NCBI RefSeq assembly: GCF_021389935.1
Contig: NZ_CP089979.1
Span: 186,001 to 250,000 of the forward strand
DNA length: 64,000 nucleotides
From: Fulvivirga ligni
GTDB taxonomy: Bacteria; Bacteroidota; Bacteroidia; Cytophagales; Cyclobacteriaceae
Direction of reading: 5' to 3'
The notes beneath the pieces are model-generated. The model had not been told where the DNA came from. It saw only the letters and a program-made list of their open reading frames with translations, and made no database searches. Numbering within the stretch: position 1 is the stretch's first letter; every line of letters begins with the position of its first letter. Shown here piece after piece: positions 42,297-58,980 of this stretch. Position numbers and translations under genes: made by a program.

Positions 42297-43221
42297 ACTT
42301 ATTTGAATATCTCGGAATGTCAAAAAAAACTCTATACACGAACTTCCATCTAATTTTTACAATCCTAAAGTATCTTTGTCTTTCAATCTTAGACATTAAT
42401 GGTAAAAGAAAGATGGTAAATATGGAGTTAAAATATACCCCAATCACATACACCCAATATGCCTGATAACTGATCTTATACCAGTATAAAAAATCAGACA
42501 ATAAATTCTGATCATTAATGATGGTCTGCCTACTACTACCTCCTCCATAATGAACTACTGTTGATCTTTCACATAGCTTAATCCGGTAGCGGTCCTTAAT
42601 TCTATTCCTAAACCATTCTGTTTCTTCGCAGTACATAAAAAAATCAGGATCGAATCCTTTTGTCTCCTCAAACACAATCCTATCCAAAAAAATATAAGCT
42701 CCATACAATCCTCCGACCTCTGTAGAGTCAGCTTTAGGAAGTGCGTTAAGATACTTATAGAAAAATGGATTAGAATTAATTACCCCAATCTTAAATGCCA
42801 TCAAAACATCATCCCTTCTTCTTGAGAAGAAAGATCTTTGGGATGATAAATCACTATTTCTAATATCTGCCCCGTAAATTTTGTACTGCTTTTGATTTTC
42901 ATCAGCAAATGCCACAGCGTTGGTTAATACGTCATTTAAGAAATAAGTATCCGAATTTAACAACAAATAATATCTACCTTTAGCAAAATTCATCCCTTGA
43001 TTATTGGCTATGCCAAAACCAACATTCTTAGAATTTTGAATAAGCTTAATCATTGGAAATTTATTAACAAGTTCTTCACCTTCTTTATTTTTAGAGTTAT
43101 TATCAACAATAATAATCTCATATTTAACACCTAATGATGTATTCTCCACTATACTATTAATACATGCGGTAGTAAGGGGTAAAGTGTTATAATTAACTAT
43201 GATCACAGAAACATCAATCAT
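42265..43221 (-). CDS. Family 2 glycosyltransferase (rhamnosyltransferase-like)
   Basis: 318 residues. It starts MIDVSVIIVNYNTLPLTTAC, has VDNNSKN, NVGFGIANNQGM and the NSD metal site in LLLNSDTYF, a layout common in WbbL-type rhamnosyltransferases. A hydrophobic C-terminal stretch (about 265-285) may attach it to the membrane. It is the last glycosyltransferase of the leftward run, overlaps the sulfotransferase gene by four bases (ATGA) and is itself overlapped by the PKD gene. The sugar and acceptor are unknown. Confidence 0.88.
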   Translation of the reverse strand: MIDVSVIIVNYNTLPLTTACINSIVENTSLGVKYEIIIVDNNSKNKEGEELVNKFPMIKLIQNSKNVGFGIANNQGMNFAKGRYYLLLNSDTYFLNDVLTNAVAFADENQKQYKIYGADIRNSDLSSQRSFFSRRRDDVLMAFKIGVINSNPFFYKYLNALPKADSTEVGGLYGAYIFLDRIVFEETKGFDPDFFMYCEETEWFRNRIKDRYRIKLCERSTVVHYGGGSSRQTIINDQNLLSDFLYWYKISYQAYWVYVIGVYFNSIFTIFLLPLMSKIERQRYFRIVKIRWKFVYRVFFDIPRYSNKYGSRDNSLVV

Positions 43222-44048
43222 ATACTCAATGACTTCAATTGCTTGTAAATGTCAAATGCTTCCTTTAGGACCTTATTTTTGTTTTCATCCGAGGTCTTAT
43301 GCAGAATGTCTTCATCGTAAATTTCTTTAATCGTGGCTTTAATCTCTAAACCAATATTATCCTTTAACCACCGCACTAGTTCGTTCTCATTTCCAATAAA
43401 ATCATTTACTTCGGTTATTATTATGTCTTTGGGATTTTTATACTGGAAATCTATAATGCTTTTATTATATTCAATGTAAGTTTTTTGGAATGTTGAAATC
43501 CACTTATTCCTATTGAGATCTATATCGATATACCATGCTAATCTCTTAATTGGATTCCGGGTATAATACCATTTATTCTTACGTAATCTCTTATATAAAG
43601 ACTCTATCACCTCAATTGGATTTCTAAAAACAGCGACAACTTTAAGATTTGGAATATAATGCTCCTTTATATCATTCATGAATAGTGTAAACCGGGGTTC
43701 TTTCCATCCCCAAATTTCATGATTGTGGTTTCTTTCATTTATCAATCTAGATAATTCTATCTTATAATGATTAAATTTAAATTTATCACCCTCCAGAATA
43801 AGTCCTGTTGAGTGCAATCCCATTTTTGTCAGCTCATTACTCGATAATCTTAGAAAATCAAGATCTTCAAAATGACCATATTTATTATCACTATATCCAC
43901 TCAACAGCATATCACCCATAAATAGATTATTTTGATTAAGCCATTGAGAAACTAAAGAAGTTCCTGATCGATGCATCCCAGATACGAATAATACTCTATT
44001 ACTAGGTTCGCCTGCTATTACAGACTGAAAATTAGGAGAATCTATCAT
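43218..44048 (-). CDS. Sulfotransferase family protein
   Basis: 276 residues. The PAPS 5'-phosphosulfate loop is GMHRSGTS (residues 24-31), after beta strand RVLFVS. The 3'-phosphate-binding strand AVFRNPIEVIESL follows near 139-151, and GWKEPRF lies at 114-120. This is the layout of Sulfotransfer-type enzymes acting on glycans. Its place inside a glycosyltransferase run suggests it sulfates the exported glycan. It overlaps neighbours by four bases on both sides. Some related proteins have lost activity, so PAPS use needs proof. Confidence 0.8.
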   Translation of the reverse strand: MIDSPNFQSVIAGEPSNRVLFVSGMHRSGTSLVSQWLNQNNLFMGDMLLSGYSDNKYGHFEDLDFLRLSSNELTKMGLHSTGLILEGDKFKFNHYKIELSRLINERNHNHEIWGWKEPRFTLFMNDIKEHYIPNLKVVAVFRNPIEVIESLYKRLRKNKWYYTRNPIKRLAWYIDIDLNRNKWISTFQKTYIEYNKSIIDFQYKNPKDIIITEVNDFIGNENELVRWLKDNIGLEIKATIKEIYDEDILHKTSDENKNKVLKEAFDIYKQLKSLSI

Positions 44049-45232
44049 AGCTTATTTATTACCTGTTTATATACCCTTGTCAAATTCTCAATTGATCTGT
44101 ACTTCTTAGCCAATTGATTTGACACGTTATTAATCCTATCAACATTATAATCTTTAATAATTTGCTTTATTTCAAGAAAGTCTTCATCGGAAATATATTC
44201 TTCAAAGTCAACTACTTTACCCCCTCCTTTAACTTCCTCAATAATGGTTGAATCATCGCCAATTTGAGGTGACATAATGATAGGTAATCCATTTGCCCAA
44301 TATTCACCATTTTTTATTGGAGAAAATGCCATAGACCATCTAGTTCTTCGATGCAAGCAAAGTCCAAAATCAGCAACACTCAAATAATCTTTAACGGTGT
44401 AATGAGGTACATTTGTAATAAATACCATTTTCAAATCTATATGATGCTTTGATAATAGAGCATATAGTTCTGTTTTTTCCTGAGGAGTTAATATTATTAA
44501 GTAAACATTTTGTTGTTCAATAAAATTCTTAAATAGATTGAAGGCTACATCATCATAATATAAGCCGCCAAACTTCCCTACATATACTCCAACTACCGCC
44601 TCATGAGAAATCTTCATTTTTCTTCTTAACTCATTGCGAGCTTTATTACTAAACTGGAAACTTTCGCCATCTACGACGCAAGGAATAGCCTCGATATTGC
44701 TATTCCCGTAAGTATTTACTAAATAATCTTTATAACTATTAGAAACCGTAATTAATGTCTCTGCAGTTCGAATTTGTTTATACTCATAATACTTTTGAAT
44801 GAGGTATCTTATATCCCATTTTTTCCAAACATCACTAGCTGCCATATAACTTGAATGCGGCTCAAAAGACTCAACGATAAATGGAATTTTTGTCTTCTGC
44901 CAAATGAGATAACCCAGAGCCCCAGCGGGAGCACCTCGGCAAATAATCTTATCAAAATTCCACTCTCTACAAAGAAGGATTAGTTGTTTAGGCAAAACAT
45001 TAAAATCTCTTATTTTATCCCTAAAAAAACTTTTATATGGTGAATAAAATGGTTTATGTATTACTTTATCCAGCTCCCAATTACACTCAGCCTTTGCAAC
45101 ATTTCTTTCTATTGAAACATAAACAATATTCTGAACTACCTCAAACTGATTTAATACAGCTAAAGTAGGCCTTATACTGGCCTCACTCAACCCTTCATAG
45201 ACAGACCAGTACCCTATATACAGAATATTCAT
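44045..45232 (-). CDS. Family 4-type glycosyltransferase
   Basis: 395 residues with a GT-B layout: MNILYIGYWSVYEGLSEASI at the N-terminus, VVGVYVGKFGGLYYD at the start of the second domain, and KNGEYWANGLPIIMSP as the donor-binding EX7E-like region. It overlaps the sulfotransferase and the next glycosyltransferase gene by four bases each. Donor and acceptor cannot be told. Confidence 0.82.
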   Translation of the reverse strand: MNILYIGYWSVYEGLSEASIRPTLAVLNQFEVVQNIVYVSIERNVAKAECNWELDKVIHKPFYSPYKSFFRDKIRDFNVLPKQLILLCREWNFDKIICRGAPAGALGYLIWQKTKIPFIVESFEPHSSYMAASDVWKKWDIRYLIQKYYEYKQIRTAETLITVSNSYKDYLVNTYGNSNIEAIPCVVDGESFQFSNKARNELRRKMKISHEAVVGVYVGKFGGLYYDDVAFNLFKNFIEQQNVYLIILTPQEKTELYALLSKHHIDLKMVFITNVPHYTVKDYLSVADFGLCLHRRTRWSMAFSPIKNGEYWANGLPIIMSPQIGDDSTIIEEVKGGGKVVDFEEYISDEDFLEIKQIIKDYNVDRINNVSNQLAKKYRSIENLTRVYKQVINKL

Positions 45233-46041
45233 CTAAGTAATACGTTTAATGCCCTAAGCACTTTTCCTCTACCTAGATAGGATTTAAACATAATTTTTTT
45301 AATCCTTCTTAAGAGATATTTCAATTGAACCTGGTTGATCTCAGGCCAATGACATAAAATATTATATATATTAAAATATCCGTTTTCTAATGACGTTAAT
45401 GAGGACATGGCGGATTCATGACCTATTCTTCTTTTGTATATTACCTTGTCTGTGGATTTATATAATTTACCAGAACATATCGAAAGGTAGAACAATAGGT
45501 CCTCACCATGTGTAAGATTTTCGCGAAAGTTATAATACACATGAGCACTATTCTTAATCATCCAGGTTATTCCAAAAAAGCATTCTTCAGATAATTTTAA
45601 CAGACTATTAAATGGATCACCTTCAAATGTAGGAACATATTCTCTTACGACATTATCTACATTTTGATCAAAGATCTGAACACGCCCATCAACAAAATCG
45701 ACACGATCATCATCGAAAAAAACAGAAAGCCTATCCTTAATACTGTTAAAAGAAAGTAAATCATCGCTATCTAAAAAACAAAAATACTTTCCTCTCATAT
45801 TTTGTAGACCTACATTTCTAGCAGAACTAACTCCATTGTTACTCTTCTTAAAATAACAAATTCTTTCATCATTGAATAAATTAATAATTTCCTCTGATTC
45901 ATCGGTGGAACCGTCATTTATTATTAATAACTCCCAATTTGAATATGACTGACTTATAACCGAATTTATACTGTCATACAAAAAATCCCTGGCATTGAAG
46001 ACAGGCATAATGATTGTGACTAAAGGATTTCTGTCAAGCAT
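45229..46041 (-). CDS. Family 2 glycosyltransferase
   Basis: 270 residues, GT-A fold: PLVTIIMPVFNARDFLYDSI, LLIINDGSTDESEEI, SARNVGLQNMRGKYFCFLDS and the metal-binding DSDD. The C-terminal part is short and basic. Its start overlaps the preceding gene by 22 bases, so translation is probably coupled. Confidence 0.9.
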   Translation of the reverse strand: MLDRNPLVTIIMPVFNARDFLYDSINSVISQSYSNWELLIINDGSTDESEEIINLFNDERICYFKKSNNGVSSARNVGLQNMRGKYFCFLDSDDLLSFNSIKDRLSVFFDDDRVDFVDGRVQIFDQNVDNVVREYVPTFEGDPFNSLLKLSEECFFGITWMIKNSAHVYYNFRENLTHGEDLLFYLSICSGKLYKSTDKVIYKRRIGHESAMSSLTSLENGYFNIYNILCHWPEINQVQLKYLLRRIKKIMFKSYLGRGKVLRALNVLLR

Positions 46042-47090
46042 TCTTCAACTTCTTGAATTTTTCTCTCATATGAATTATCTGCTGCCAAGGATTTTCTTGC
46101 TAATATCAAATCTTCAGTATTGTGATTAGCTAGATTCTCAATTACTTCTCCAATTAATTGACACCAACTTTCAGAAGTTCTTGCCATATAAATCAAATCC
46201 TCAAAAGGCAAGTATTCCTTTGTATAAGAAGTAATTATAGGCTTCCCTACTGCCAAGTATTGCCAAAATTTATGCGGCGATGCATATGTCACATAATATT
46301 CTTTCGAATATGCCAACATCAGAATATCTGCAGCATTCAAATACGACCATAGTTCGGCAGGAGGAACAGCTTCTAAAAGATATGTATTTTCATAAGATTT
46401 AAAAGGTTCAGGAACAAAATCCATGTTACTCCCCAAAAAAATAAAATCTGTTTTAGGTTGACTTATTACGGCCTGCTGCAATAGGTTCCAGTCTATAAAT
46501 GGCATAGCCAAATTCCCCACGTATAAGGCCTTAATTCCGTTGGTCCCTGGAAGAGTAACTATGTCCGACGAATATTCTGAAAGATTTACTCCATGAGTAA
46601 TTAGATACGTATTTGTATTATACATAAAAAGCTTTTCTACAATATCAGGTATTACACCAAAACAGATTTTAGCAGTAGTTGCAGCTTGTCTAGTATTAAA
46701 ATCTTGATTCAAATCCACAATATGAGAGATACATAATACTTTTTCGGGTAACGCATAAAAATCAAAGAACACTGAGTTATCAAAAGACCATACAATGTCA
46801 AAATCAACTCCGCACAATTTTTGCAAATTATTGAATTTTATGCTGATAAAATAACGCTGCAGCCAGGTCGGAAGGAATCTAAGTCCTTTCACAAATCCTG
46901 AATAATTGATTATAAAGAGATCCTCATATCTAGAATTAGTAATCTTATACTTACTGCCAGAGGGGGGATTAAGAAAAAACACTTTATTCCCTTTTTTTGA
47001 CAAGTTAACTGCGTAATGGTGTTTTGAAACAAAAACATGATTCCAAGGTTCAGGAGAAATTAGTAAGATATTTTTGTTGGATAAGGTCAC
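46020..47090 (-). CDS. GT-B glycosyltransferase
   Basis: 356 residues. It starts at a GTG (47090); upstream codons run into a stop with no ATG. The N-terminal KNILLISPEPWNHVFVSKHH and later IKALYVGNLAMPFIDWNLL, FIFLGSNMDF and SPHKFWQYLAVGKPIITSY give a GT-B two-domain layout of the family 1/4 kind. It lies 5 bases after the next upstream gene. Confidence 0.82.
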   Translation of the reverse strand: MTLSNKNILLISPEPWNHVFVSKHHYAVNLSKKGNKVFFLNPPSGSKYKITNSRYEDLFIINYSGFVKGLRFLPTWLQRYFISIKFNNLQKLCGVDFDIVWSFDNSVFFDFYALPEKVLCISHIVDLNQDFNTRQAATTAKICFGVIPDIVEKLFMYNTNTYLITHGVNLSEYSSDIVTLPGTNGIKALYVGNLAMPFIDWNLLQQAVISQPKTDFIFLGSNMDFVPEPFKSYENTYLLEAVPPAELWSYLNAADILMLAYSKEYYVTYASPHKFWQYLAVGKPIITSYTKEYLPFEDLIYMARTSESWCQLIGEVIENLANHNTEDLILARKSLAADNSYERKIQEVEECLTEIL

Positions 47091-47095
47091 TATAA

Positions 47096-48205
47096 TTAAT
47101 TATTATCGATTATTGATTCCATCATATTTTTGTAAAGCGAGCCAATCTTTTGATGAGTATATTTAGAGGCATATGATTCCCTCTTCAAGTCATCACACTG
47201 AACACCCTTACAGAGAGCGTTGAACCAGTCTTCTTCACACCATGAAGACAACAACCACCCAGATTCACCTATAACCTCAGGTATTCCACCGATTTTGGGG
47301 GCAATTACCGTAGCCCCACAGCTAATAGCCTCCGCACAAACCACTGAGAAAGTTTCATAATTGGTAGGATGTAGAAATAGAGCGCACGTTTGCATCTTAT
47401 CTACAATCTGATTTTCATTCATTTTCCCCAAAAAAATAAGCCGCCCGTACTTATCATTCTTATTTTTCCATTGTATCATATCATCATACAATGTACCATA
47501 CCCTCCAATTTGCAACTCATACTTATTCTCATTTTTGCTGTTAAAAGCTACGAAAGCATTAAAAAGAGGGAAAGGATCCTTTGGTGGCTTCCATTGACTA
47601 AGCATAAAAAAAAACTCTCTTCTCTTTACTCTATTATTATTTAAAAAAACATTGTCTACAATATTAGGAACAATGAAAGAAGGGAAGTTAGCTCCAGAAA
47701 ACCTTTTTATATCTTCCGACAAAGCCTTTGAAACAGAAATCACCGGAATATTTTGTCGAAATATATGTTGTATCCTTGGTACATCATCTGCCGATGCCAT
47801 TCCAAAATTATTATGATAAGCACTCCAATGTTCAGTAATAACAATTGGTGTTTTCACCCACCTTTTAATCCAATGCCAATATGTTAAATTGGGATAAGCA
47901 ATATGAAAATTGATGATGTCGAACTTGCTTTTTCTCTCACGAAAAAGCACCAGAATTACCATCACAATCGCTATTAGTTCTAATAAAAACCAAGGTGTCA
48001 TTTGGGATGAAAAGAGATATTTCTTATTACCTAGCAATTCTTTTTTCCCAAAAGCTACTTCGAATAAACTTCGGGCTGATTCTACATGATATACTGTATT
48101 TTCACAGCCTACCAAATTTAAAGACTCAATATGCCTATAAATCCATAATGCGGTTTTTGGATTATTATAGGATGGATACCAAGAAGTAATGTGAAGTACT
48201 TTCAA
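47096..48205 (-). CDS. Family 4 glycosyltransferase
   Basis: 369 residues. The start is a TTG at 48205, giving the family-typical MKVLHITSWYPSYNNPKTAL; no ATG is nearby. Domain II shows GRLIFLGKMNENQIVDKMQT and the EX7E donor site in HPTNYETFSVVCAEAISCGA. It lies 2 bases after the upstream family 2 gene. Sugar specificity is unknown. Confidence 0.9.
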   Translation of the reverse strand: MKVLHITSWYPSYNNPKTALWIYRHIESLNLVGCENTVYHVESARSLFEVAFGKKELLGNKKYLFSSQMTPWFLLELIAIVMVILVLFRERKSKFDIINFHIAYPNLTYWHWIKRWVKTPIVITEHWSAYHNNFGMASADDVPRIQHIFRQNIPVISVSKALSEDIKRFSGANFPSFIVPNIVDNVFLNNNRVKRREFFFMLSQWKPPKDPFPLFNAFVAFNSKNENKYELQIGGYGTLYDDMIQWKNKNDKYGRLIFLGKMNENQIVDKMQTCALFLHPTNYETFSVVCAEAISCGATVIAPKIGGIPEVIGESGWLLSSWCEEDWFNALCKGVQCDDLKRESYASKYTHQKIGSLYKNMMESIIDNN

Positions 48206-48207
48206 AA

Positions 48208-49158
48208 CTAAAACAAACTTTTTCTAATACAATATTGTAAAGTTCGCCAATTGATAATATACCATGGCCTCTCTTTTACAGCATAAAGAGAATTTAGAAT
48301 AGCCTCTTTATTAAGACCGGAAAACATCAAGTTTTCGGCCTTTTTCCTGTAAAATAAAGAAGGGTCTTCTTCGAAAGGAATTTTTAATTCATTGATATAT
48401 CTAACCAGTCCAGACAGATCATTTTTTTCAATAGAGTCAGATTCAGAGTTTTTTCTTTCTTTAGCTAAAAACCTAACAATATCATGACCTAGAAATTGAG
48501 TAGGGTTTTTAAACCCCTTCGTCATCGCCGTGCCTACTGACCGATAGAGGTATAATGGCTGATGATAGTTTATATTACTCATCTTATATCCGCTTTCATT
48601 AATTCTCAACAACCAATCATAATCTTCACTGATAATTCCAAGCGGTTGAAGTTGTTCCCTAAAGCCCCCAACTCGTTTCAAAACTTCCCTCCTGAACATA
48701 ATAGAGGGCTTTTGAAAAAAATTACATTTTATCAATTCCTCTTGTATTCGAGCAGTATTCTCCTCCTGATTTAATTGTTTACGGATTATATTACCCTTTG
48801 GATCAATCACGGCATAATTAGTCCCAATCAAATCAAGTCCCTTATTCAGTCCTTCTAATTGTAATTCCAACCTTTTACAATGTGATACGTCATCAGCATC
48901 CTGAAAAGCTATAATATCACCCTCAGCCTTTTTAAAAAGAAAATTGATTGTCCTTTGATAACCGAGATTACTTGAATTTCTATAAACCTTAATTCTTTCA
49001 TCATAAATCTTCGATACAATTTCCCAGCTTCCATCAGTTGAGTGATCATCACATACAATCACTTCTAAATTATTATATGTTTGATTTAGAATAGAGACTA
49101 TTGACTCTTCAATAAAATTAGATGCATTGTATACAGGAATAATTACTGAAACTCGCAT
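48208..49158 (-). CDS. Family 2 glycosyltransferase
   Basis: 316 residues, GT-A fold with MRVSVIIPVYNASNFIEESI, VIVCDDHSTDGSWEI and the metal-binding DADD in IAFQDADDVSHCKR. It overlaps the FkbM gene by 16 bases. It resembles the family 2 enzyme two genes upstream in motif wording, so the two may be old duplicates. Confidence 0.9.
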   Translation of the reverse strand: MRVSVIIPVYNASNFIEESIVSILNQTYNNLEVIVCDDHSTDGSWEIVSKIYDERIKVYRNSSNLGYQRTINFLFKKAEGDIIAFQDADDVSHCKRLELQLEGLNKGLDLIGTNYAVIDPKGNIIRKQLNQEENTARIQEELIKCNFFQKPSIMFRREVLKRVGGFREQLQPLGIISEDYDWLLRINESGYKMSNINYHQPLYLYRSVGTAMTKGFKNPTQFLGHDIVRFLAKERKNSESDSIEKNDLSGLVRYINELKIPFEEDPSLFYRKKAENLMFSGLNKEAILNSLYAVKERPWYIINWRTLQYCIRKSLF

Positions 49159-49925
49159 AACTTTTTATTAACACCAAACACGGTTTCCCCCTTTGAATAT
49201 AATTGAAATCCAGCCTTACTTAAAAAGTCACAGATTTGAATTCGAGATGCAACTTCGTCATGGATTTCAATACATAAAAGCTTGGTCTTATCGATTACAT
49301 TAATAAATGAAGGTTCTTCAATAATTATTTTTTGTTCAGCTCCTTCAATATCAATTTTAAGCACATCTATTTCATGCCATTTGTGGTCTTTCAAAATATT
49401 AAAAAGTACTGCTGATTCGACCAATTCCAAGTCTGAATCGGATTCCTTAGCACTTAATGACCATGACTGCCCGTCCCTGAAAGTTCGATCTATAACAACC
49501 CCATCTGAATGAATCCAAAGCGCCTTGTTTACGACTATATGATCACTAAAACCAGTTAAGTTTCTTTTCAGCACCTGGAGGTTCTTACTATCCATTTCTA
49601 TGAGCATTAATTGTACGTGTGGATATTTTCTTAGAAAATACAAGCTTGTCAGGCCGATATTTGCACCTGCATCAACGAAATTCTTAACTGAACCATTTAA
49701 ATAATAATTTATGAGATGATTAAAAAACGAATATTCCTCGTCAATTAATACCTGTTTAAACACCCTATAATCGGATCCTGAATTCCTCAAGTAGATGGGT
49801 GAGTCGTTCCAGCAGAATTTTTCAGAATCTACTTTATATTCTTTCAGCTCTTCCCTCAGAAAAAAGTCTTTATCAATTCGCAGTATTTTGACGAGGACTC
49901 TTCTAACCACATCAATCAAATTCAT
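49143..49925 (-). CDS. FkbM family methyltransferase
   Basis: 260 residues. The SAM-binding motif NFVDAGANIGLTSLYF (residues 82-97) and the later LKIDIEGAEQKII are the FkbM signature. These enzymes often O-methylate sugars in surface glycans. It overlaps both neighbours (16 and 4 bases), so it belongs to the glycan operon. The target sugar is unknown. Confidence 0.9.
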   Translation of the reverse strand: MNLIDVVRRVLVKILRIDKDFFLREELKEYKVDSEKFCWNDSPIYLRNSGSDYRVFKQVLIDEEYSFFNHLINYYLNGSVKNFVDAGANIGLTSLYFLRKYPHVQLMLIEMDSKNLQVLKRNLTGFSDHIVVNKALWIHSDGVVIDRTFRDGQSWSLSAKESDSDLELVESAVLFNILKDHKWHEIDVLKIDIEGAEQKIIIEEPSFINVIDKTKLLCIEIHDEVASRIQICDFLSKAGFQLYSKGETVFGVNKKLCEFQ

Positions 49926-50917
49926 TTTTTATTAATTTCATGAATATTCAAAAATCTCTTTTTACTAGATATCAAGTTACGAATTTCAGACTTTATGGTA
50001 AGTAAGCTAATTTCCATAAAACAAACATAATTCTTGAAATCAAGAGGATTATTAGTAATTGATTTTACACTTAATAACCAACTATTCACATTAAGTCCCT
50101 GATGGTATAAATAATTAGCACCAAATCTAAATGGATATGAAGGATCTTTTATTGTTTTCTGCAGCAGTTCCAACTTAATATCTTCCAATTTTTCAAGATC
50201 GTTTATATTGGGAGTTCTTAATCTAATTCCATGCAATTTATATATTACGTCACTGTTGATTACTCTCTCATTATTAAAATAACCGATACTCTTTGTTAGT
50301 GAGGTTTTGCTCATCCTGTAATAATATAAGGGATCACGTAAATTCTTAGCCTTGAAGTAACCTATAAATCTTAAATTAAAATCAATGTCTTCTCCATGCG
50401 TGAAATTTCTATATAAAGGCCCTACTTTATCTAAAACTTTTATTCTTAATATCGTGGTAGGTCCATGAAGAGCCGGTTTCCTATCTTCCAAAAATGAACT
50501 GATCATTTCGCTATCAAGCGGCAAATTAGAGGTTGACATCAGCCTATTGCTCATGAATGAGATATAGTTTGACCCAACCATATCTATTTGACAATCATCA
50601 ACCAAAGCAGCTATCTGTAATTCGAACCGATCCAGACGAGAAATATCATCTGCGTCATGTATAGTTAAATATTGACCTCTGGCTTTTTCAATAAGCCTAT
50701 TTACCGTAGCAACTTTACCCCTGTTAAATTGATTATGACTTATAACTATTCGTGGATCAGTATATGAATCAATAATCTTTCTAGTTTTATCATTAGATCC
50801 ATCATCAGCGATTATTAGCTCAAAGTCAGTATATGTTTGATTTAGAACACTGTCAATAGCAGCACTGACATATCTTTCTGCGTTATATGCAGCCATTATC
50901 ACAGTTAATGAAGTCAT
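49922..50917 (-). CDS. Family 2 glycosyltransferase
   Basis: 331 residues: SLTVIMAAYNAERYVSAAID, LIIADDGSNDKTRKI, then YLTIHDADDISRLDRF with the DADD metal site. It heads the second part of the operon after an 82-base gap, the only real gap in the run, which shows no clear promoter. It overlaps the FkbM gene by four bases. Confidence 0.9.
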   Translation of the reverse strand: MTSLTVIMAAYNAERYVSAAIDSVLNQTYTDFELIIADDGSNDKTRKIIDSYTDPRIVISHNQFNRGKVATVNRLIEKARGQYLTIHDADDISRLDRFELQIAALVDDCQIDMVGSNYISFMSNRLMSTSNLPLDSEMISSFLEDRKPALHGPTTILRIKVLDKVGPLYRNFTHGEDIDFNLRFIGYFKAKNLRDPLYYYRMSKTSLTKSIGYFNNERVINSDVIYKLHGIRLRTPNINDLEKLEDIKLELLQKTIKDPSYPFRFGANYLYHQGLNVNSWLLSVKSITNNPLDFKNYVCFMEISLLTIKSEIRNLISSKKRFLNIHEINKK

Positions 50918-50999
50918 TCTAAAAATTATGGTTATTAGCCGTTTGTTTTAATACAAAAGGTGCTTTGAAAATTAATTGTAAATACTAATCGGAAGAAAA

Positions 51000-51935
51000 T
51001 TATAATTGAGGATCAAACCCGCTTTGCTTATATTTACTTACGATAGAGCTTCTTTTATTATATAACTCACGTTTCTCTCTGTAAAGCTTGAATCTATTTA
51101 TGGATTCAGTAAATTGTATTTTAAGTATAGCCTTAATTACATCTTCCAATCCCATAAATATTTCATTCTTTAAATCTTTAGAATTATAACTTTCAGATAT
51201 ATCTAACGCACAAACCTTGAATTTTTTAATAGCTATATGACGCTTAAAGTTTTTATCATTGTGTTTCCCTTCTCTATCTTCTGTATCATGATAGGCAAAA
51301 GAAGAAGGCACTAAACCCACCTTTAGATTAAAGTATTTAAGCCTTTGTAAATAATTATTATCCTCTCCATAATGCGGAAAATTTAATGAATCGAATAAAC
51401 CTACTAATTCGATTGTTTTAATAGGTATCAACCAAGCTGCTGCATTTATAAAATTAACTTCATAAACATTTTTTATAGGGTGTTTTAAAACTAAATCTGA
51501 ATAAAACTTTCTCCCTCCATCTGAAGGATTACTTATGAAAGTGCTGAAGAGAAACTCTAACATTTCGCCACTTGCGTTCAAATGTATTGGACTCAACACT
51601 CCATAATTTGAGTTTTCTTTGGCTCTCAACACCAAATTTTCGATGGTATCACTTCGAACCCAAGCATCATGATTGAGCAAAAAAACAAAATCAGAGCAAG
51701 AAGTTTGAGCAAGTTTCAGTCCTATGTTATTTGCTGCTGCAAATCCCAAATTTTCATCATTACTGATAAGAGTTATTTGTGGATAATTACTTTTTATAAA
51801 ATCAATTGTTTCATCATCAGATGCGTTATCCACTATTACAACGTTAACTTCTACTGTACTCGACAGTAAGCTATCGATACACTTTTGAATCCATTTAATC
51901 GAATTATAAGTTACAACTACGGCAGTAATCCTCAT
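51000..51935 (-). CDS. Family 2 glycosyltransferase (rhamnosyltransferase-like)
   Basis: 311 residues: MRITAVVVTYNSIKWIQKCI, VVIVDNASDDETIDFI, DENLGFAAANNIGLKLA and NHD in FVFLLNHDAWVRSD. The asparagine-aspartate site and later FPHYGEDNNYLQRLK fit the rhamnosyltransferase-like subgroup. The start overlaps the upstream methyltransferase stop by one base (TAATG). Confidence 0.88.
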   Translation of the reverse strand: MRITAVVVTYNSIKWIQKCIDSLLSSTVEVNVVIVDNASDDETIDFIKSNYPQITLISNDENLGFAAANNIGLKLAQTSCSDFVFLLNHDAWVRSDTIENLVLRAKENSNYGVLSPIHLNASGEMLEFLFSTFISNPSDGGRKFYSDLVLKHPIKNVYEVNFINAAAWLIPIKTIELVGLFDSLNFPHYGEDNNYLQRLKYFNLKVGLVPSSFAYHDTEDREGKHNDKNFKRHIAIKKFKVCALDISESYNSKDLKNEIFMGLEDVIKAILKIQFTESINRFKLYREKRELYNKRSSIVSKYKQSGFDPQL

Positions 51936-52699
51936 TAACGGTCAAACATTAATTTAAACTCATCAAAAGAAATCAAATTTAAAACCTCTTTACGACTCAA
52001 ACTCAATGCGGAGTATTCATAAAATTCGTCATCCATTGAGGTAGGCGCTCCAATATTTTTACCCTTTGAAATAAGACCAACCCCCCAATCTATATCAATA
52101 CAACAGCTGGATAAATCATCCATTTTCCTATACTTCACAAATGCCTTCCATGTCGATCCGTTCCAATACTTGTTCGCAGGCGTCCACTCATATGAATATT
52201 GATCCCTCGCATGCCATTCTGTGGGCGGGTTGCAATCATGTAATACAATAAACCCATCATCCTTTACATATCTTAAAGCATTAGAGATATCTCGATCAAC
52301 ATATGAAGCCAGATGCATACCATCTATAAATACTACATCAAATTTTATAGACTTCGATAATAGAGCTCCTTGATCCAACTGCTCGAAGAAATCATCACTA
52401 GTTAATTTAAAATCGACAGGGTTTTGGGTATATTCTAAACCAGGGTCCACACTATATTTAACATTTGCGTTAATTAAGGCAAAATTATCCTGAGGGTTTC
52501 TCACACCAATTTCAAGATACAATGTTTCTCGGTTTAATGATGCTAATAAGTGATTTATTACATCATATCGCTTTTTGTCACTAGTTACTTGATCTATAGA
52601 ACCTTTCTGAGCATCTAAATAATGCTTATTTTTAAACACAACTTCTTCGTAATACTCACCAAGCTTATATCTTCTATATAGTTTTTTAAAATATTTCAT
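51935..52699 (-). CDS. Class I SAM-dependent methyltransferase
   Basis: 254 residues. The pattern LYLEIGVRNPQDNFALINA, then YSVDPG, FDVVFIDGMHLASYVDRDI and GFIVLHDCNPP matches the Methyltransf_24-like group. The first glycine motif is short (EIGV), as usual for that group. It lies between the acetyltransferase (overlap of 4) and a glycosyltransferase, so it probably modifies the glycan. The substrate is unknown. Confidence 0.8.
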   Translation of the reverse strand: MKYFKKLYRRYKLGEYYEEVVFKNKHYLDAQKGSIDQVTSDKKRYDVINHLLASLNRETLYLEIGVRNPQDNFALINANVKYSVDPGLEYTQNPVDFKLTSDDFFEQLDQGALLSKSIKFDVVFIDGMHLASYVDRDISNALRYVKDDGFIVLHDCNPPTEWHARDQYSYEWTPANKYWNGSTWKAFVKYRKMDDLSSCCIDIDWGVGLISKGKNIGAPTSMDDEFYEYSALSLSRKEVLNLISFDEFKLMFDR

Positions 52700-53292
52700 A
52701 TTTTAGGAACTGACATCAAATACTCAATTTTTTCCTCAATTTTGGTCATGTCCCACTCCCACCAAGAATCTTGCAGAAGCCGAATAATTATTTCATCAGA
52801 AAATCTGCTTTTAATTTTTTTCGCCGGATTTCCTCCCCAAATCTCATAGTGACCGACATCTTTAGTTATTACACTGCCTGCTGCCAAAACAGCTCCATTA
52901 CCTACATTCACACCTGACATGATAGTAACACCTCTGCCGATCCAAACATCATTTTGAATAACAACGTCTCCATTCGTACTCGGATGCCCTTCTATATGAA
53001 AGGACTTTTCATGGAAATGAGGAATTTTATTAAATGGATAAGTCGTAATCCAATCATACCGATGATTTCCCCCTAAAAAAATAGTCACGTCATCGGAGAT
53101 CGAGCAAAACTTTCCAATATGTAAACTGGCGCCACTATCAGCAAATAGAACTGATGGTTTTCCATAAGTAAATTCTCCTATATGAAAATTATCATGAGTA
53201 AGAATTTCTCTTGTGAAAAACAGACTCTTCATTTCACTCTTTTTTCTGAATAGGTGGCTCAGGCGTGCTCTGATGTTGCTAAATAATTTCAT
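52696..53292 (-). CDS. CatB-like hexapeptide acetyltransferase
   Basis: 198 residues from the ATG at 53292; a TTG one codon earlier is less likely. Hexapeptide repeats of a left-handed beta helix run through about 50-165 (ASLHIGKFCSISDDVTIFLG; VVIQNDVWIGRGVTIMSGVN; GNGAVLAAGSVITKDV). The loop with NHRYDWITTYPF and the GGNPAKKIKSRFS segment are typical of CatB/xenobiotic-type acetyltransferases found in O-antigen loci. It overlaps the exporter ATPase gene by 14 bases. Confidence 0.9.
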   Translation of the reverse strand: MKLFSNIRARLSHLFRKKSEMKSLFFTREILTHDNFHIGEFTYGKPSVLFADSGASLHIGKFCSISDDVTIFLGGNHRYDWITTYPFNKIPHFHEKSFHIEGHPSTNGDVVIQNDVWIGRGVTIMSGVNVGNGAVLAAGSVITKDVGHYEIWGGNPAKKIKSRFSDEIIIRLLQDSWWEWDMTKIEEKIEYLMSVPKI

Positions 53293-54460
53293 CAAACTTT
53301 ATAATACCAACATTAAAATCTTCTAAATGTGATAATTTCTTTGAGTTCTCTTGAACTTCAAATTGACAACATTCTTCAACTTTGTCATACACTTCTTGAC
53401 CTGGTTTATACAATATTAGATTTAAATAATACTGCCCTTTATTAAAAATTTCACTTGAAAATTTCACCATGAACTCTTTCTCATCCGAACTAATAACTTT
53501 ATCTAGTGCACCAACTGCGACATTATCATAATTAAAAACCCTTAGTAATAAGTGTAAACTATCATCCAGAACCTTCTTATTAACAGTTACTTTAACTATA
53601 AGCAACTTTTGTCCTGAATGATCTGTAAAATCTAAATGAACTCGTTTGATATAATTTACTTCTTCCGAAAATGAACCCTCCGCATTAAATTCATGGGTAT
53701 TATGCTGATTGCCGATAGACATGTATTTATTTAATACATCTCCTATCTTGCTAGACATCTCCACATTGCCATTATGGAGTAAAATCCCCTTGGTGCAAAG
53801 ATGCCTGATAGAAGAAAGGTTATGACTAACAAACAAAACAGTCCTCCCCTCATTCTTGCTAACCTCATCCATTTTACCGAGACACTTTTTCTGAAATTCA
53901 GCATCCCCTACAGCTAAAACCTCGTCTACAATCAAAATTTCTGGTTCCAAATGAGCTGCCACACTAAAAGCAAGACGGACTTTCATGCCTGAGCTATAGT
54001 GCTTTACAGGTGTATCTATAAACTTCTCCACACCACTAAAGGCCACAATCTCATCGAACTTGGCTTTAATCTCAGCCCTTTTCATTCCTAATATGGTACC
54101 ATTAAGATAAATATTTTCTCTACCACTAAGCTCCATATGGAAGCCTGTACCAACTTCGAGTAGAGAAGACACTCGACCATTAATTTCAAACCTACCAGTT
54201 GTGGGTTCGGTAATCCTGCTGAGAATTTTCAAAAGAGTACTTTTACCGGCACCGTTTCGACCTATGATACCTACAGCTTCACCTTTTTTTATCTCAAAAT
54301 CTATATCTCTCAGTGCCCAAAAATCTTCTTTGGAACTATTGCCTTTACCAAATAAGCTTGACAACTTAGTTCCAAAAGCACTTCTGAAATCGCCTTCTTT
54401 TTTATGGCCAATTTCATATTTCTTTCCGAGCCCTTCGACTTTTATTGCTATATCTCCCAT
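53279..54460 (-). CDS. Polysaccharide ABC exporter ATPase with C-terminal domain (Wzt-like)
   Basis: 393 residues from the ATG at 54460 (MGDIAIKVEGLGKKYEIG); an ATG at 54472 would add four residues and overlap the permease gene. Walker A GRNGAGKST lies at residues 67-75, the signature YSSGMKVRLAFS and Walker B ILIVDEVLAVGD follow. The residues after about 255 form an extra beta-rich domain, as in Wzt proteins, where it recognises the modified chain end before export. It pairs with the permease one base upstream. Confidence 0.92.
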   Translation of the reverse strand: MGDIAIKVEGLGKKYEIGHKKEGDFRSAFGTKLSSLFGKGNSSKEDFWALRDIDFEIKKGEAVGIIGRNGAGKSTLLKILSRITEPTTGRFEINGRVSSLLEVGTGFHMELSGRENIYLNGTILGMKRAEIKAKFDEIVAFSGVEKFIDTPVKHYSSGMKVRLAFSVAAHLEPEILIVDEVLAVGDAEFQKKCLGKMDEVSKNEGRTVLFVSHNLSSIRHLCTKGILLHNGNVEMSSKIGDVLNKYMSIGNQHNTHEFNAEGSFSEEVNYIKRVHLDFTDHSGQKLLIVKVTVNKKVLDDSLHLLLRVFNYDNVAVGALDKVISSDEKEFMVKFSSEIFNKGQYYLNLILYKPGQEVYDKVEECCQFEVQENSKKLSHLEDFNVGIIKFDEII

Positions 54461-54461
54461 A

Positions 54462-55289
54462 TTAAACCACATCAGCCATTATCCGCTCTACCTTCTTAAA
54501 GTAAAAGAGCGATGATATAAACAAAATAATTATTATTGAAAAAGAAATCAAGCTATATACTGATGGGGCTTGTTGTCCAAGCAAAGTCCACCTGAACCCT
54601 TCAATGACACCTACCATAGGATTAAGATAGTACAATATGCTAGCCCAATCAGGAAGATTATTTATTACTAGGGAGGAGGGATATCCTACTGGAGTAGCAT
54701 ATAACCCAAACTGCACAAGAAATGGGACCACATGCTTAAAGTCACGATAACGAATGGTTAATGCACTCATCCAAATACCAACTGCCAAAGCTGATATTAT
54801 GGTCATTATTAAAAATAAAGGAAAATAAACGATATTAATTGAAGGGGTGAACCCATATACCATCATTAATACAATCACCAAAAATAACCCAATGCAAAAG
54901 TCCACCAGCCCTACTACTGCTTTAGATAAAGGGATTACCAGGCGAGGGAAATATATTTTCTTAACCATCTCCTGAGCAGAAATGATGGAATCTCCCGCTT
55001 GTGCTAGTACAAAAGCAAAATAACTCCAGGCGGCCATTCCTGAAATAGCAAAAAGAGCATAGGGCACACTGCCCGTATCTACTTTAATCGCCTTCCCAAA
55101 TACCAAGATAAATATTAGTAGAGTTGCTAATGGCTGAATAACAACCCAGATAAGACCCAGAGCTGTCTGAGCATATCTCACCCTCAGATCTCTGTAAGCT
55201 AGTATTAAAAATAAGTCTTTATATTGAAATAATTCTTTAAGATTTAGGCGTAAACCTTTTTTATTTGCATCAACGATTAACTTATGCAT
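54462..55289 (-). CDS. Polysaccharide ABC-2 exporter permease (Wzm-like)
   Basis: 275 residues. NLKELFQYKDLFLILAYRDL, then VRYAQTALGLIWVVIQPLAT, is the hallmark of ABC-2 O-antigen/capsule permeases. About six membrane spans follow, and the C-terminal SILYYLNPMVGVIEGFRWTL is typical. It exports lipid-linked glycan across the inner membrane with the Wzt-like ATPase. Its ATG abuts the ATG of the divergent glycosyltransferase gene within one ATGCAT hexamer. It is the first gene of the leftward glycan operon. Confidence 0.93.
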   Translation of the reverse strand: MHKLIVDANKKGLRLNLKELFQYKDLFLILAYRDLRVRYAQTALGLIWVVIQPLATLLIFILVFGKAIKVDTGSVPYALFAISGMAAWSYFAFVLAQAGDSIISAQEMVKKIYFPRLVIPLSKAVVGLVDFCIGLFLVIVLMMVYGFTPSINIVYFPLFLIMTIISALAVGIWMSALTIRYRDFKHVVPFLVQFGLYATPVGYPSSLVINNLPDWASILYYLNPMVGVIEGFRWTLLGQQAPSVYSLISFSIIIILFISSLFYFKKVERIMADVV

Positions 55290-56372
55290 TCTAAATCAAT
55301 TCTTTTTATAACTCCCTACCCTCAAGGACAAGCCCCAAGCCAACGCTTCCGCTTTGAACAGTATCTCCCAATCCTAAAAAAGAATAATCATCAGTTTAAG
55401 ATCTCCCCATTTTTGACTAAAAAGGCCTGGGATACACTCTACAAAGATGGTAAAATCATTTCCAAGTTGTATTATTTTTTTCAAGGTTTTGTAACCCGTT
55501 TGATTGATATTGTTCGGACACCTTATTATGACTTCATTTTTATACACAGAGAAGCAACACCTGTAGGGCCCCCATTTTTTGAATGGATAATCTCAAAAAT
55601 ATTAAGAAAAAAAATAATCTACGATTTTGATGATGCTATATGGCTTGAGGATCCAGATGAAAAAGGCTCAATCAAAAGCATGGTGAAATGGAAAAGTAAA
55701 GTAAGTTCCATTTGTAGATGGAGTTATAAGGTAAGTACCGGTAATGAGTATTTGGCAAAATATGCCGCTAATTTTTGCACAAACGTCATTATTAATCCCA
55801 CTACAATTGACACCGAACACTTACATAATCCAGATATAACAGTGAACCCTAAAAACGATGAAAATTTAGTTATAGGCTGGACTGGAACACATAGCACTTT
55901 ACAATACCTGAATCCGTTGGTTCCGATTATAGCTGAGTTAGAAGAAATTTTTGACTTTAACTTTATTATTATTTCAAATAAAGCTCCTTCGTTCAAGCTT
56001 AAATCACTAAAATTTATTCCATGGAACAAAAACACTGAAATTAAAGACCTACAACGTTTCGATATTGGAGTCATGCCCTTAACAAATGATTTATGGTCAC
56101 AAGGAAAATGCGGATTTAAAGCTCTTCAATACATGGCCTTGGGTATACCTGCCATAGCATCGCCAGTTGGAGTAAACTCCCTAATTATAGATGACAATGA
56201 AAATGGATTTCTTTGCCATACCAGGGAAGAATGGAAGAAAAATATAGAGACACTAATTATCAATAAGGATAAAAGAAAGTTATTTGGCAGATCAGCTAGG
56301 AAAAAAGTTGAGAATTTTTATTCAGTATCTTCCAATTCAGACAACTTCCTATCCTTATTCTCTTTGGAGTAA
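55284..56372 (+). CDS. Family 4-type glycosyltransferase
   Basis: 362 residues, GT-B fold. It starts MHSKSILFITPYPQGQAPSQ directly at the first beta strand, has IYDFDDAIWLEDPDE, VIGWTGTHSTLQYLNPLVPI and a donor site around CGFKALQYMALGIPAIASPV. It reads rightward, away from the exporter, and its 3' end overlaps the convergent membrane-protein gene by 55 bases. It probably acts in the same glycan pathway. Confidence 0.87.
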   Translation: MHSKSILFITPYPQGQAPSQRFRFEQYLPILKKNNHQFKISPFLTKKAWDTLYKDGKIISKLYYFFQGFVTRLIDIVRTPYYDFIFIHREATPVGPPFFEWIISKILRKKIIYDFDDAIWLEDPDEKGSIKSMVKWKSKVSSICRWSYKVSTGNEYLAKYAANFCTNVIINPTTIDTEHLHNPDITVNPKNDENLVIGWTGTHSTLQYLNPLVPIIAELEEIFDFNFIIISNKAPSFKLKSLKFIPWNKNTEIKDLQRFDIGVMPLTNDLWSQGKCGFKALQYMALGIPAIASPVGVNSLIIDDNENGFLCHTREEWKKNIETLIINKDKRKLFGRSARKKVENFYSVSSNSDNFLSLFSLE

Positions 56373-57661
56373 TAATATAGTATGATCATACCGACGATGT
56401 AGAAAGGCATAAGTGGAATCTTGTATCGTGCTAATGTTCCAAAATTGGAGGTCGAGATACCTACTGCAAATGCAAAAATTAATGAGAAAAGAATACAAAA
56501 AAGAACTTCAGGTTTCATTAGAAATTTGAAAAAATTTGCAACTCCAAATTTCCAAAGCATCCATAATGTTAACCCAAGCATAAACAAAGACTCTAGCGAC
56601 GATAATAACATCAAGGGATTTCTTACCTCCCAAAGATACGGCCTGAATAATGATACGTTAATGGCTTCAGGAGCAAGTCTGATCATACTTCCGACTGTCC
56701 CATCCAAGTCTCCCAATGTATATCCAGAGTTATCTCCCATTCTTGCCCCCCAACCATAGCGAATGTCATATGCAGTCATTTGAGCGGTAGTCGCAATATT
56801 ATCAAGAGCATATTTTGAATTTTGTTCACCTACTTGGTTAATGGCTAAATATCCAATTGCAATTGCGGCCCCCAACATAAGAGGTGTTACAAAAAACTTC
56901 GTAATAGGAGACTTTATCTTTCCTATATTATTAACAAAAAACCACAAAATTAATGCTGGTAAAAAAGAGAGAAGTATATAAACCTTAATATTAAGTATAA
57001 GCCAGCCACTCAAAATTAAAATTATGAAATTGAGCACATTGAGATTCTTTCGAAATAAAAGTTGATAGAAGGAATAAGTTAACCACCCCAGCGCCCCCAT
57101 AGTCACCGTATCCTTCAAGATACCTGAACCCCAAAAAAACACTGAAGGCATAAAAAAGATAGCTAAAGCTAACCACTTATGCACAGATGGATACAGCGAG
57201 TAGAACACTAAAAATAAAGCCCACATTCCTGTGAAAGAAAATGCTGCAAACAGGACAGCTGTAGCACTGTAGGTGGAAAAGGTTAGTATATCAAGGAGCG
57301 TCACTATCTTGATCAAGAAATAAGAATGCTCATCTCTATAATACCATATATTTTTAGCGTAATCGTAGACACCTTCATAATCTCCATTGGCCATTAACAT
57401 CTTAAGGCCTTTAGATATATCATCATTAAAAGCTAGCCAAATCCAGCGGCTTCCGTGGGTGTGGTATGCAAAGGTGTCTCCTCCACCATAGTAAAACTGA
57501 TAAACCAGACCTACACAGATGGCACCAATTATTTTAACAGTAAGGGCGGGAATAAAATATTTTGAAGTGATTTCGTCAGACACATAAGGCCTTGCTATGT
57601 ACGCGATTACATACACAATTAGCAAGACTATAGGTGTTACTACAAAATCTTTTAACTCCAT
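56318..57661 (-). CDS. Polytopic membrane protein of unknown function
   Basis: 447 residues with roughly ten to eleven hydrophobic spans. The first periplasmic loop holds YYGGGDTFAYHTHGSRWIWL, with an Asp and two His that could be functional; the last loop has VGISTSNFGTLARYKIPLMP. Topology and location beside glycan genes recall Wzy-like polymerases or GT-C transferases, but no family motif is recognised. It starts 8 bases after the TPR gene stop, so it may share that transcript. Confidence 0.7.
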   Translation of the reverse strand: MELKDFVVTPIVLLIVYVIAYIARPYVSDEITSKYFIPALTVKIIGAICVGLVYQFYYGGGDTFAYHTHGSRWIWLAFNDDISKGLKMLMANGDYEGVYDYAKNIWYYRDEHSYFLIKIVTLLDILTFSTYSATAVLFAAFSFTGMWALFLVFYSLYPSVHKWLALAIFFMPSVFFWGSGILKDTVTMGALGWLTYSFYQLLFRKNLNVLNFIILILSGWLILNIKVYILLSFLPALILWFFVNNIGKIKSPITKFFVTPLMLGAAIAIGYLAINQVGEQNSKYALDNIATTAQMTAYDIRYGWGARMGDNSGYTLGDLDGTVGSMIRLAPEAINVSLFRPYLWEVRNPLMLLSSLESLFMLGLTLWMLWKFGVANFFKFLMKPEVLFCILFSLIFAFAVGISTSNFGTLARYKIPLMPFYIVGMIILYYYSKENKDRKLSELEDTE

Positions 57662-57669
57662 TGGTTTAT

Positions 57670-58857
57670 TTAAAAATCACGAAGCTTTTCACGGGCACTT
57701 TTATGCACGCTATCACCTCTCTTGGCCTGCTTCTTCACTAGCTTGTAATATCGCTTGGATTCGCGATCATTTCCTTCCTCCTTATAGATATCTCCCAGGG
57801 CAAGTAAAGAGTAATGATAATATCCAGTGTCTGTAGCTTTTATTTCTTCTGAGTAGGTCTTCGCTTTCAAGTAATAGTATTTTGCCTTTTCATTATTTTT
57901 TTGCGATTCGTAAATCTGCCCAAGAAAAAAGGCTGCATATCTTCCACTAGTTCCCTCATAACCTATCATGCCATCATCAATTCTTTTAATAATGTCTTCG
58001 GCTACAGGTCTTGCTGCATGAAACTTACCGGATGAATATAACAGCCTGGCGTAATAACGGTGGAAATAAGGATTATCCGGATAGGTAGTATGCAGATATT
58101 CTCCTATCTGCAACGCGCGAGGTTTATTGTTTTCGTAACTATTTAGTATCCTCATTAAGAATACCATGGCCTCAATTCTGGTGTAGAAGGCATTATAAGA
58201 AACCTCAGTCAATTGCTGAATGCCTAACTTTTTATCTCCTTTAGGAAAGAATGCTATAATTGGCTTTAACAGCGGATAATTTTCCGGCACCCACACTGAG
58301 AAGTAATTATAAAGGGCTTTTCCAAACAATAGCTCAGGACTTAGATCAGAGTCATCTTCTATTTCCTGCATATAGTTTAGGGCATTTTTACCCACAAAAG
58401 CAGATTTAGTCCATTTACCACGCTCTTCTGTAGAATATAGCCTCCCCTCAAAACCGTAGGCTGCTGCCAAAAAGAAGGTGGCCTCCACTTTGTGCTTGGG
58501 TTTCTCATAGAGATTTTCTGAAATAAGAATTACAGAGTCCATATAGGCCAGAAATTTCTCATCATGACTGGTGTTGTTCATGTCAGGCATGATTTTCCAC
58601 CATTCGCTAAGTCCCAATAAAAAGTATGGTAGCGGATGCCATTTATATTTTTGTTTCAGCCATCGAAACTGCTGTTCTGCCTTATCAAATTTAAAATTAT
58701 ACAGATCATTCATGGCCTGGTTTATCTCAATTTGCAATTGCATATCCGAGATAAGAATAACCTGCTTGTCATCCTCCGCCTCTTCCTGAGCCAATGAAAG
58801 TGTAATAGATAAAAATAGAAATGTTAGTGTTAAAAACGACCTCATAATTAGTGACAT
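57670..58857 (-). CDS. Secreted/periplasmic TPR protein
   Basis: 395 residues with a signal peptide (about 1-23, ending SLAQ; a second Met at residue 5 could be the start). Helical repeats follow, including FDKAEQQFRWLKQKYKWHPL, FFLGQIYESQKNNEKAKYYY and LLALGDIYKEEGNDRESKRY. These are TPR-like pairs. Such proteins scaffold complexes; the partner is unknown. It lies just upstream of the polytopic membrane-protein gene and is divergent from a small membrane-protein gene. Confidence 0.78.
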   Translation of the reverse strand: MSLIMRSFLTLTFLFLSITLSLAQEEAEDDKQVILISDMQLQIEINQAMNDLYNFKFDKAEQQFRWLKQKYKWHPLPYFLLGLSEWWKIMPDMNNTSHDEKFLAYMDSVILISENLYEKPKHKVEATFFLAAAYGFEGRLYSTEERGKWTKSAFVGKNALNYMQEIEDDSDLSPELLFGKALYNYFSVWVPENYPLLKPIIAFFPKGDKKLGIQQLTEVSYNAFYTRIEAMVFLMRILNSYENNKPRALQIGEYLHTTYPDNPYFHRYYARLLYSSGKFHAARPVAEDIIKRIDDGMIGYEGTSGRYAAFFLGQIYESQKNNEKAKYYYLKAKTYSEEIKATDTGYYHYSLLALGDIYKEEGNDRESKRYYKLVKKQAKRGDSVHKSAREKLRDF

Positions 58858-58980
58858 AAAGATATATCTTTATTTTTTCTTTGCATTAGGATATTCATAA
58901 TCCTTGACATAAACGGTTAAAAGGTCTGGTCTAGTTCTTAACGGTGAAAATTTTATTTTCTTGTTTAGTATCTTTCCGGC

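Follow-up and report, generated by a model that had tools for sequence, protein, structure and literature searches.

The 64,000-nucleotide window that we analyzed (Fulvivirga ligni contig NZ_CP089979.1, positions 186,001 to 250,000) contains two divergent genes whose start codons lie within a single hexamer. On the + strand, GT (55284..56372) encodes a 362-aa glycosyltransferase with a Glycos_transf_1 domain (PF00534, E 1.6e-10); on the - strand, WZM (54462..55289) encodes a 275-aa ABC-2 permease like those of polysaccharide exporters (PF01061, E 2.4e-17). Both start codons fall in the ATGCAT at 55284..55289, and the two coding sequences overlap head-to-head by 6 bp at their 5' ends. The other end of GT overlaps by 55 bp (56318..56372) with the convergent WZY447 (56318..57661, - strand), a 447-aa protein that is hydrophobic on inspection, matched no Pfam or NCBIfam family, and carries an arbitrary label that claims no function. 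Upstream of WZY447 lies TPR395 (57670..58857, - strand), a TPR-like protein and positionally the first gene of this run, followed by a 123-bp divergent intergenic region (58858..58980) that is the closest conventional place for a promoter of the leftward genes. This region contains a perfect 14-bp inverted repeat, AAAGATATATCTTT, at 58858-58871, directly before the TPR395 start; it occurs once in the window (vs 0.08 expected when one mismatch is tolerated), is also found before TPR395 in the congener G005 and, if an offset of 3 bases is allowed for, in G006, and may be an operator or leader element.

WZM heads a leftward cassette. It is adjoined by WZT (53279..54472, - strand), an exporter ATPase (PF00005, E 6.2e-22) with a Wzt_C-like tail, giving the adjacent ABC-2 permease and ABC ATPase of a Wzm/Wzt exporter. 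As in known Wzm/Wzt export cassettes, the permease gene precedes one for an ATPase bearing a Wzt_C-like tail, after which come sugar-transfer and modification genes; in contrast to them, matches to the NCBIfam Wzm and Wzt equivalogs are below cut-off. The sole NCBIfam match of WZM was the Wzm/RfbD galactan permease, at 55.4 bits vs a cut-off of 380, and the Wzt_C domain of WZT scored 23 bits, short of the required 30.4. The rest of the near-gapless run (38751..53295, - strand), delimited by ORF gaps and family matches, includes a glycosyltransferase, methyltransferases, a hexapeptide transferase, a T9SS-tail protein and others. From 58857 to 38751 the leftward run comprises 17 ORFs separated by gaps of at most 8 bp, except for one of 82 bp and the 1028 bp filled by GT, and GT therefore sits antisense inside an otherwise nearly gapless run. 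At the far end of this run the T9SS-tail protein (38751-42323), of 1190 aa, carries a T9SS type A sorting domain; in the comparison with G006 (71% identity), every codon from 2 to 30 that encodes the same residue is identical, vs 0.70 in the rest of the gene.

The cassette has a different history in different congeners. All 12 ORFs from 42265 to 53295 have counterparts at 93-97% protein identity in G006, whereas in G005 six of the same 12 lack any match at E<=1e-10 and the other six reach only 34-58%. WZM is 93% identical in both genomes; for WZT, the G005 match covers 63% of the length at 84%. This pattern of ORFs kept in G006 and not in G005, with WZT matched in part, therefore means that the cassette has been exchanged in one lineage, with replacement in G005 and a right edge within WZT beside WZM.

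The window leaves practically no other choice for either start, because stops lie close upstream and the next possible starts are far downstream: in the GT frame the first in-frame stop is codon -2 and the next ATG, GTG or TTG is codon 44, and in the WZM frame these are codons -3 and 37. The preliminary description had two divergent genes starting within one ATGCAT, with both starts fitting their families, and in both respects it holds, given the Glycos_transf_1 and ABC2_membrane domains and the bracketing stops and starts. It is very improbable that one of the genes in fact begins further downstream and that there is no overlap. A coding-score start rule did shift a start in this pair, and the GT frame of G005 has a second ATG at codon 29; against this stand the remoteness of the next starts in the window, the conservation of the hexamer in G005 and G006, and a Met at the same residue as the WZM start in 10 of 11 aligned WZM relatives. 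For this pair we trust the homology-based start over the coding-score rule. Start-context scoring gave ordinary or low values, in the 55-67th percentile for GT and the 7-35th for WZM across G000, G005 and G006.

Overlaps of this kind are scarce on the chromosome. We took a census of 1.704 Mb (window included) of the same 6.52-Mb chromosome, with 1419 called ORFs. Using earliest starts, 6 of 192 divergent pairs overlap, and the only one that does so by 1-30 bp is GT/WZM; with earliest ATGs the overlapping pairs are 3 of 190, and GT/WZM is again the single case of 1-30 bp. The coding-score rule leaves 2 of 192 pairs overlapping and no case of 1-30 bp, since it relocates a start in GT/WZM. The word ATGCAT itself is not enriched (14 in the window vs 22.4 expected). 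Divergent overlaps have been counted at 331 in 58 prokaryotes and termed strongly under-represented (PMC2174442), probably since starts need regulatory DNA. GT/WZM has both features of such divergent overlapping gene pairs, a 5' overlap on opposite strands and its retention in relatives, and does not differ from them in kind; here the 3' end of GT also overlaps an opposing gene. Among open papers we found none on divergently transcribed genes with overlapping start codons, and the titles and abstract openings of open papers on divergent overlaps or face-to-face promoters held no similar case. The arrangement is uncommon, but of a known kind.

Within the genus, 6 of 15 genomes have a WZM match at E<=1e-60. 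The preliminary description had proposed conservation of the junction as a check, and the hexamer is identical in G005 and G006, while in G009 the junction reads TACATGA and the two starts overlap by 2 bp (CATG). As read from these genomes the overlap is kept in relatives, at 6 bp in two and 2 bp in one, and is hence no annotation accident. The G009 junction differs from that of the window by one base of length after the CAT and by WZM codon 2 (TAT vs CAT; Tyr vs His). In G012 and G013 the CATG-type WZM start is kept and WZM is an intact ORF, and no GT ORF lies between WZY447 and WZM, which are separated by gaps of ~694 and ~540 bp, respectively. The G012 gap retains the GT start (MISKILFLNPY), followed by stops; it has slight protein similarity to the window GT (best tblastn E 0.005) and two stretches of DNA that match the region of GT in G009 (one at the junction with E 2e-11, the other with E 2.5e-10), and is clearly recognizable as a broken GT copy. 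The G013 gap gives weaker matches (E 0.019 by tblastn; in DNA, 9e-9 for the one at the junction and 7e-4 for another) and is probably a GT relic. More distant GT relatives occur elsewhere in G012 and G013, at 39 and 40% identity.

The palindrome itself is not needed, judging by these junctions: G009, G012 and G013 have CATG, and L261, a locus from another genus, has ATGCAT at its WZM start and no GT match within 1.5 kb upstream. ATGCAT is its own reverse complement, and its presence therefore tells only that both proteins begin Met-His. Among the 39 WZM loci listed, the window's own included, six have a divergent GT, of which four overlap and the others are 68 bp and 497 bp apart. Other divergent GT/permease pairs, in eight further genomes or contigs, have gaps of 10 to 497 bp and none overlaps; some of the permeases of further divergent pairs are only 35-42% identical to WZM. 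Six loci (L066, L080, L087, L104, L139 and L150) have the divergent genes 10 to 190 bp apart, and at L151, also without overlap, the gap is 1491 bp with WZY447 in between. The GT/WZM overlap was thus found only within the genus, and the palindrome looks like a by-product of tight gene packing, not a switch.

The pairing of GT with WZY447 is far more widespread than the overlap with WZM. GT matches at E<=1e-10 occur in 40 of 58 genomes (own included), and a WZY447 match is convergent to GT at 104 of 133 GT loci (duplicates included), 83 of the 104 being distinct. Among these 83 the two genes overlap by 46-58 bp in 30, by 4 bp in 10 and by 8-79 bp in 8 others, are separated by gaps of 1-123 bp in 23, and are rearranged over >300 bp in 12. 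In 26 of the 30 loci of the 46-58 bp class, counted by eye, the WZY447 stop is complementary to three bases of GT, the final one of a codon and the first two of the conserved Tyr codon in a YS/YA motif. Any T- or C-ending codon before that Tyr gives TAA or TAG, and the protein motif of GT can therefore maintain the overlap with no need for a regulatory reason.

If promoters lie inside these coding sequences, codons there may be under additional constraint. As a measure of this we used the fraction of codons using the same codon among those encoding the same residue in both genomes. For WZM codons 2-30 (55200..55286), a candidate embedded promoter and leader region for + strand transcription of GT, this fraction was 0.93 between the window and G005 or G006, vs 0.59 and 0.51 in the rest of the gene (0 of 5000 permutations each). 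With G009 added, the pooled genomes having GT gave 0.77 vs 0.46 (0 of 20000 permutations), whereas five WZM relatives without an adjacent GT gave 0.39 vs 0.41 (13426 of 20000 permutations). The 5' excess of WZM ranked 1 of 36 genes against G005 and 1 of 52 against G006, at 0.34 and 0.42 vs runners-up at 0.31 and 0.39; the average gene also has a small 5' excess (0.62 vs 0.53 and 0.69 vs 0.62). Consistent with this location, the best-conserved 40-bp bin between G000 and G009 (0.93) lies 20-60 bp inside WZM. G012 and G013, neither with an intact GT here, nonetheless show an excess in WZM codons 2-30 when compared with each other (0.65 vs 0.35), and G009 and G013 show none (0.46 vs 0.43); together these two comparisons count against GT as the only cause of the 5' conservation. 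A recombination tract is a less likely source of the signal, because such a tract would need to end at the junction, where GT codons 1-60 are not raised, and because part of the signal is also seen against G009.

On the other side, GT codons 61-150 (55464..55733) form a weak candidate for an embedded region promoting - strand transcription of WZM. Across four genomes the fraction was 0.56 vs 0.42 for GT codons 61-120 (52 of 5000 permutations) and 0.56 vs 0.41 for codons 91-150 (42 of 5000), the two best of six windows tested and for that reason weaker than they look; codons 1-30 and 1-60 were not raised in the same four genomes (0.49 vs 0.44 and 0.45 vs 0.44). Apart from the junction itself, the G012 relic is best preserved in the stretch at 220-300 bp (0.80 and 0.70 vs G009), and in G013 this stretch is kept no better than its surroundings (0.61, 0.57). 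A single Bacteroidota promoter box (TAnnTTTG; PMC6847099) reading toward WZM also lies inside GT, 304 bp upstream of WZM. The conserved GT codons, the relic stretch and the box coincide 180-450 bp from the junction, which is suggestive, not proof.

The box is enriched in the genome (93 vs 41.1 in shuffles, and 20 vs 4.9 with a TTG at 17-23 bases), and one antisense copy in 1083 bp is not clearly above the coding background of 0.35 per kb. Judged by eye among aligned relatives, all six specified bases of the 304-bp site are present in the window only. No TAnnTTTG occurs on the + strand anywhere within WZM, nor in the 123-bp region upstream of TPR395. Scanning the junctions of six genomes for TTG, 17-23 bases and TAnnTTTG, with 8 of 9 positions matching, gave scattered sites, none matchable across the genomes, and a sigma-70 scan was uninformative (11 sites vs 15.0 expected). 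Terminator-like sites numbered 8 vs 3.1 expected, with none on either strand at the WZY447/GT boundary (56300-56400); in the G012 and G013 gaps there were 1 vs 0.8 and 0 vs 0.1 expected, respectively.

The layout also suits a noncontiguous operon, in which GT contains no promoter for the leftward cassette and transcription reaches the cassette from TPR395-WZY447 by crossing GT; in this version the one embedded promoter is that of GT, whose mRNA would be antisense to the central part of a long transcript. We regard this as a serious possibility, only slightly less probable than promoters embedded on both sides. The leftward run is interrupted by nothing longer than 82 bp apart from GT, the boundary between WZY447 and GT has no terminator-like site, and among the 39 WZM loci listed three (L043, L044 and L048, from three other genera) have a co-oriented WZY447 immediately upstream of WZM, 11-64 bp from the WZM start set by homology, the WZM frame of L048 being broken. 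GT is, moreover, an opposite-strand gene interspersed in a co-directed run, the likeness that this locus bears to menE-menC-MW1733-ytkD-MW1731 of S. aureus (PMC7154746); joint transcription is reported there and is a prediction here, and here the coding region of the inner gene is overlapped at both ends. The extra conservation in GT codons 61-150 and the part of GT kept in the G012 relic instead suit a promoter inside GT, the promoter box is absent upstream of TPR395 too, and in other divergent pairs the intergenic space could hold a promoter. It is unlikely that all 17 ORFs of the polysaccharide export and assembly run form a noncontiguous operon in which GT mRNA pairs with the middle of the export transcript and the level of GT sets the output of the downstream cassette. 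The preliminary description further suggested that expression of the two genes may be mutually exclusive or tuned. Such an excludon-like switch (excludons are described in PMC7154746), in which the GT and WZM transcripts would exclude or tune each other, finds no support beyond the arrangement itself, and we consider it quite unlikely: exclusion would have no clear purpose, because both proteins plausibly serve surface-polysaccharide work; G012 and G013 keep an intact WZM ORF while GT is lost here, though distant GT relatives persist elsewhere; and only some members of the genus have the ATGCAT form.

We tentatively favor, at a little short of an even chance, lineage-specific compaction with promoters embedded on both sides, and not a palindromic switch. 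GT belongs to the widespread convergent pair with WZY447, and within the genus the permease heading the export cassette is packed against the GT start, the other divergent GT/permease pairs found keeping at least 10 bp. Transcription of GT would begin in about the first 100 bp of WZM, and that of the WZM cassette some 180-450 bp into GT. F. johnsoniae leaders average 33 nt, with 87% longer than 10 nt (PMC6847099), and antisense 5' leaders are therefore expected if both promoters are embedded; these leaders would overlap by a few hundred bases at most, and the six shared bases would be inert by themselves. Embedded promoters and cassette read-through can coexist, and transcripts running on from WZY447 through GT may contribute to cassette expression. 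The earlier claim that the promoter of each gene must lie in the coding sequence of the other thus stands in part: it follows if each gene has its own promoter, and codon conservation on both sides agrees with it, but "must" is too strong, because WZM may be read from WZY447 across GT, with no other leftward gap >82 bp and no terminator-like site at the boundary.

With both starts forced, congeners at a 6-bp overlap, at a 2-bp overlap or with GT decayed, and the inner gene overlapped at both ends, this locus provides a clean case for promoters inside coding sequence. It also suits the question of whether transcription of a long surface-polysaccharide operon can pass through a gene that faces the other way.
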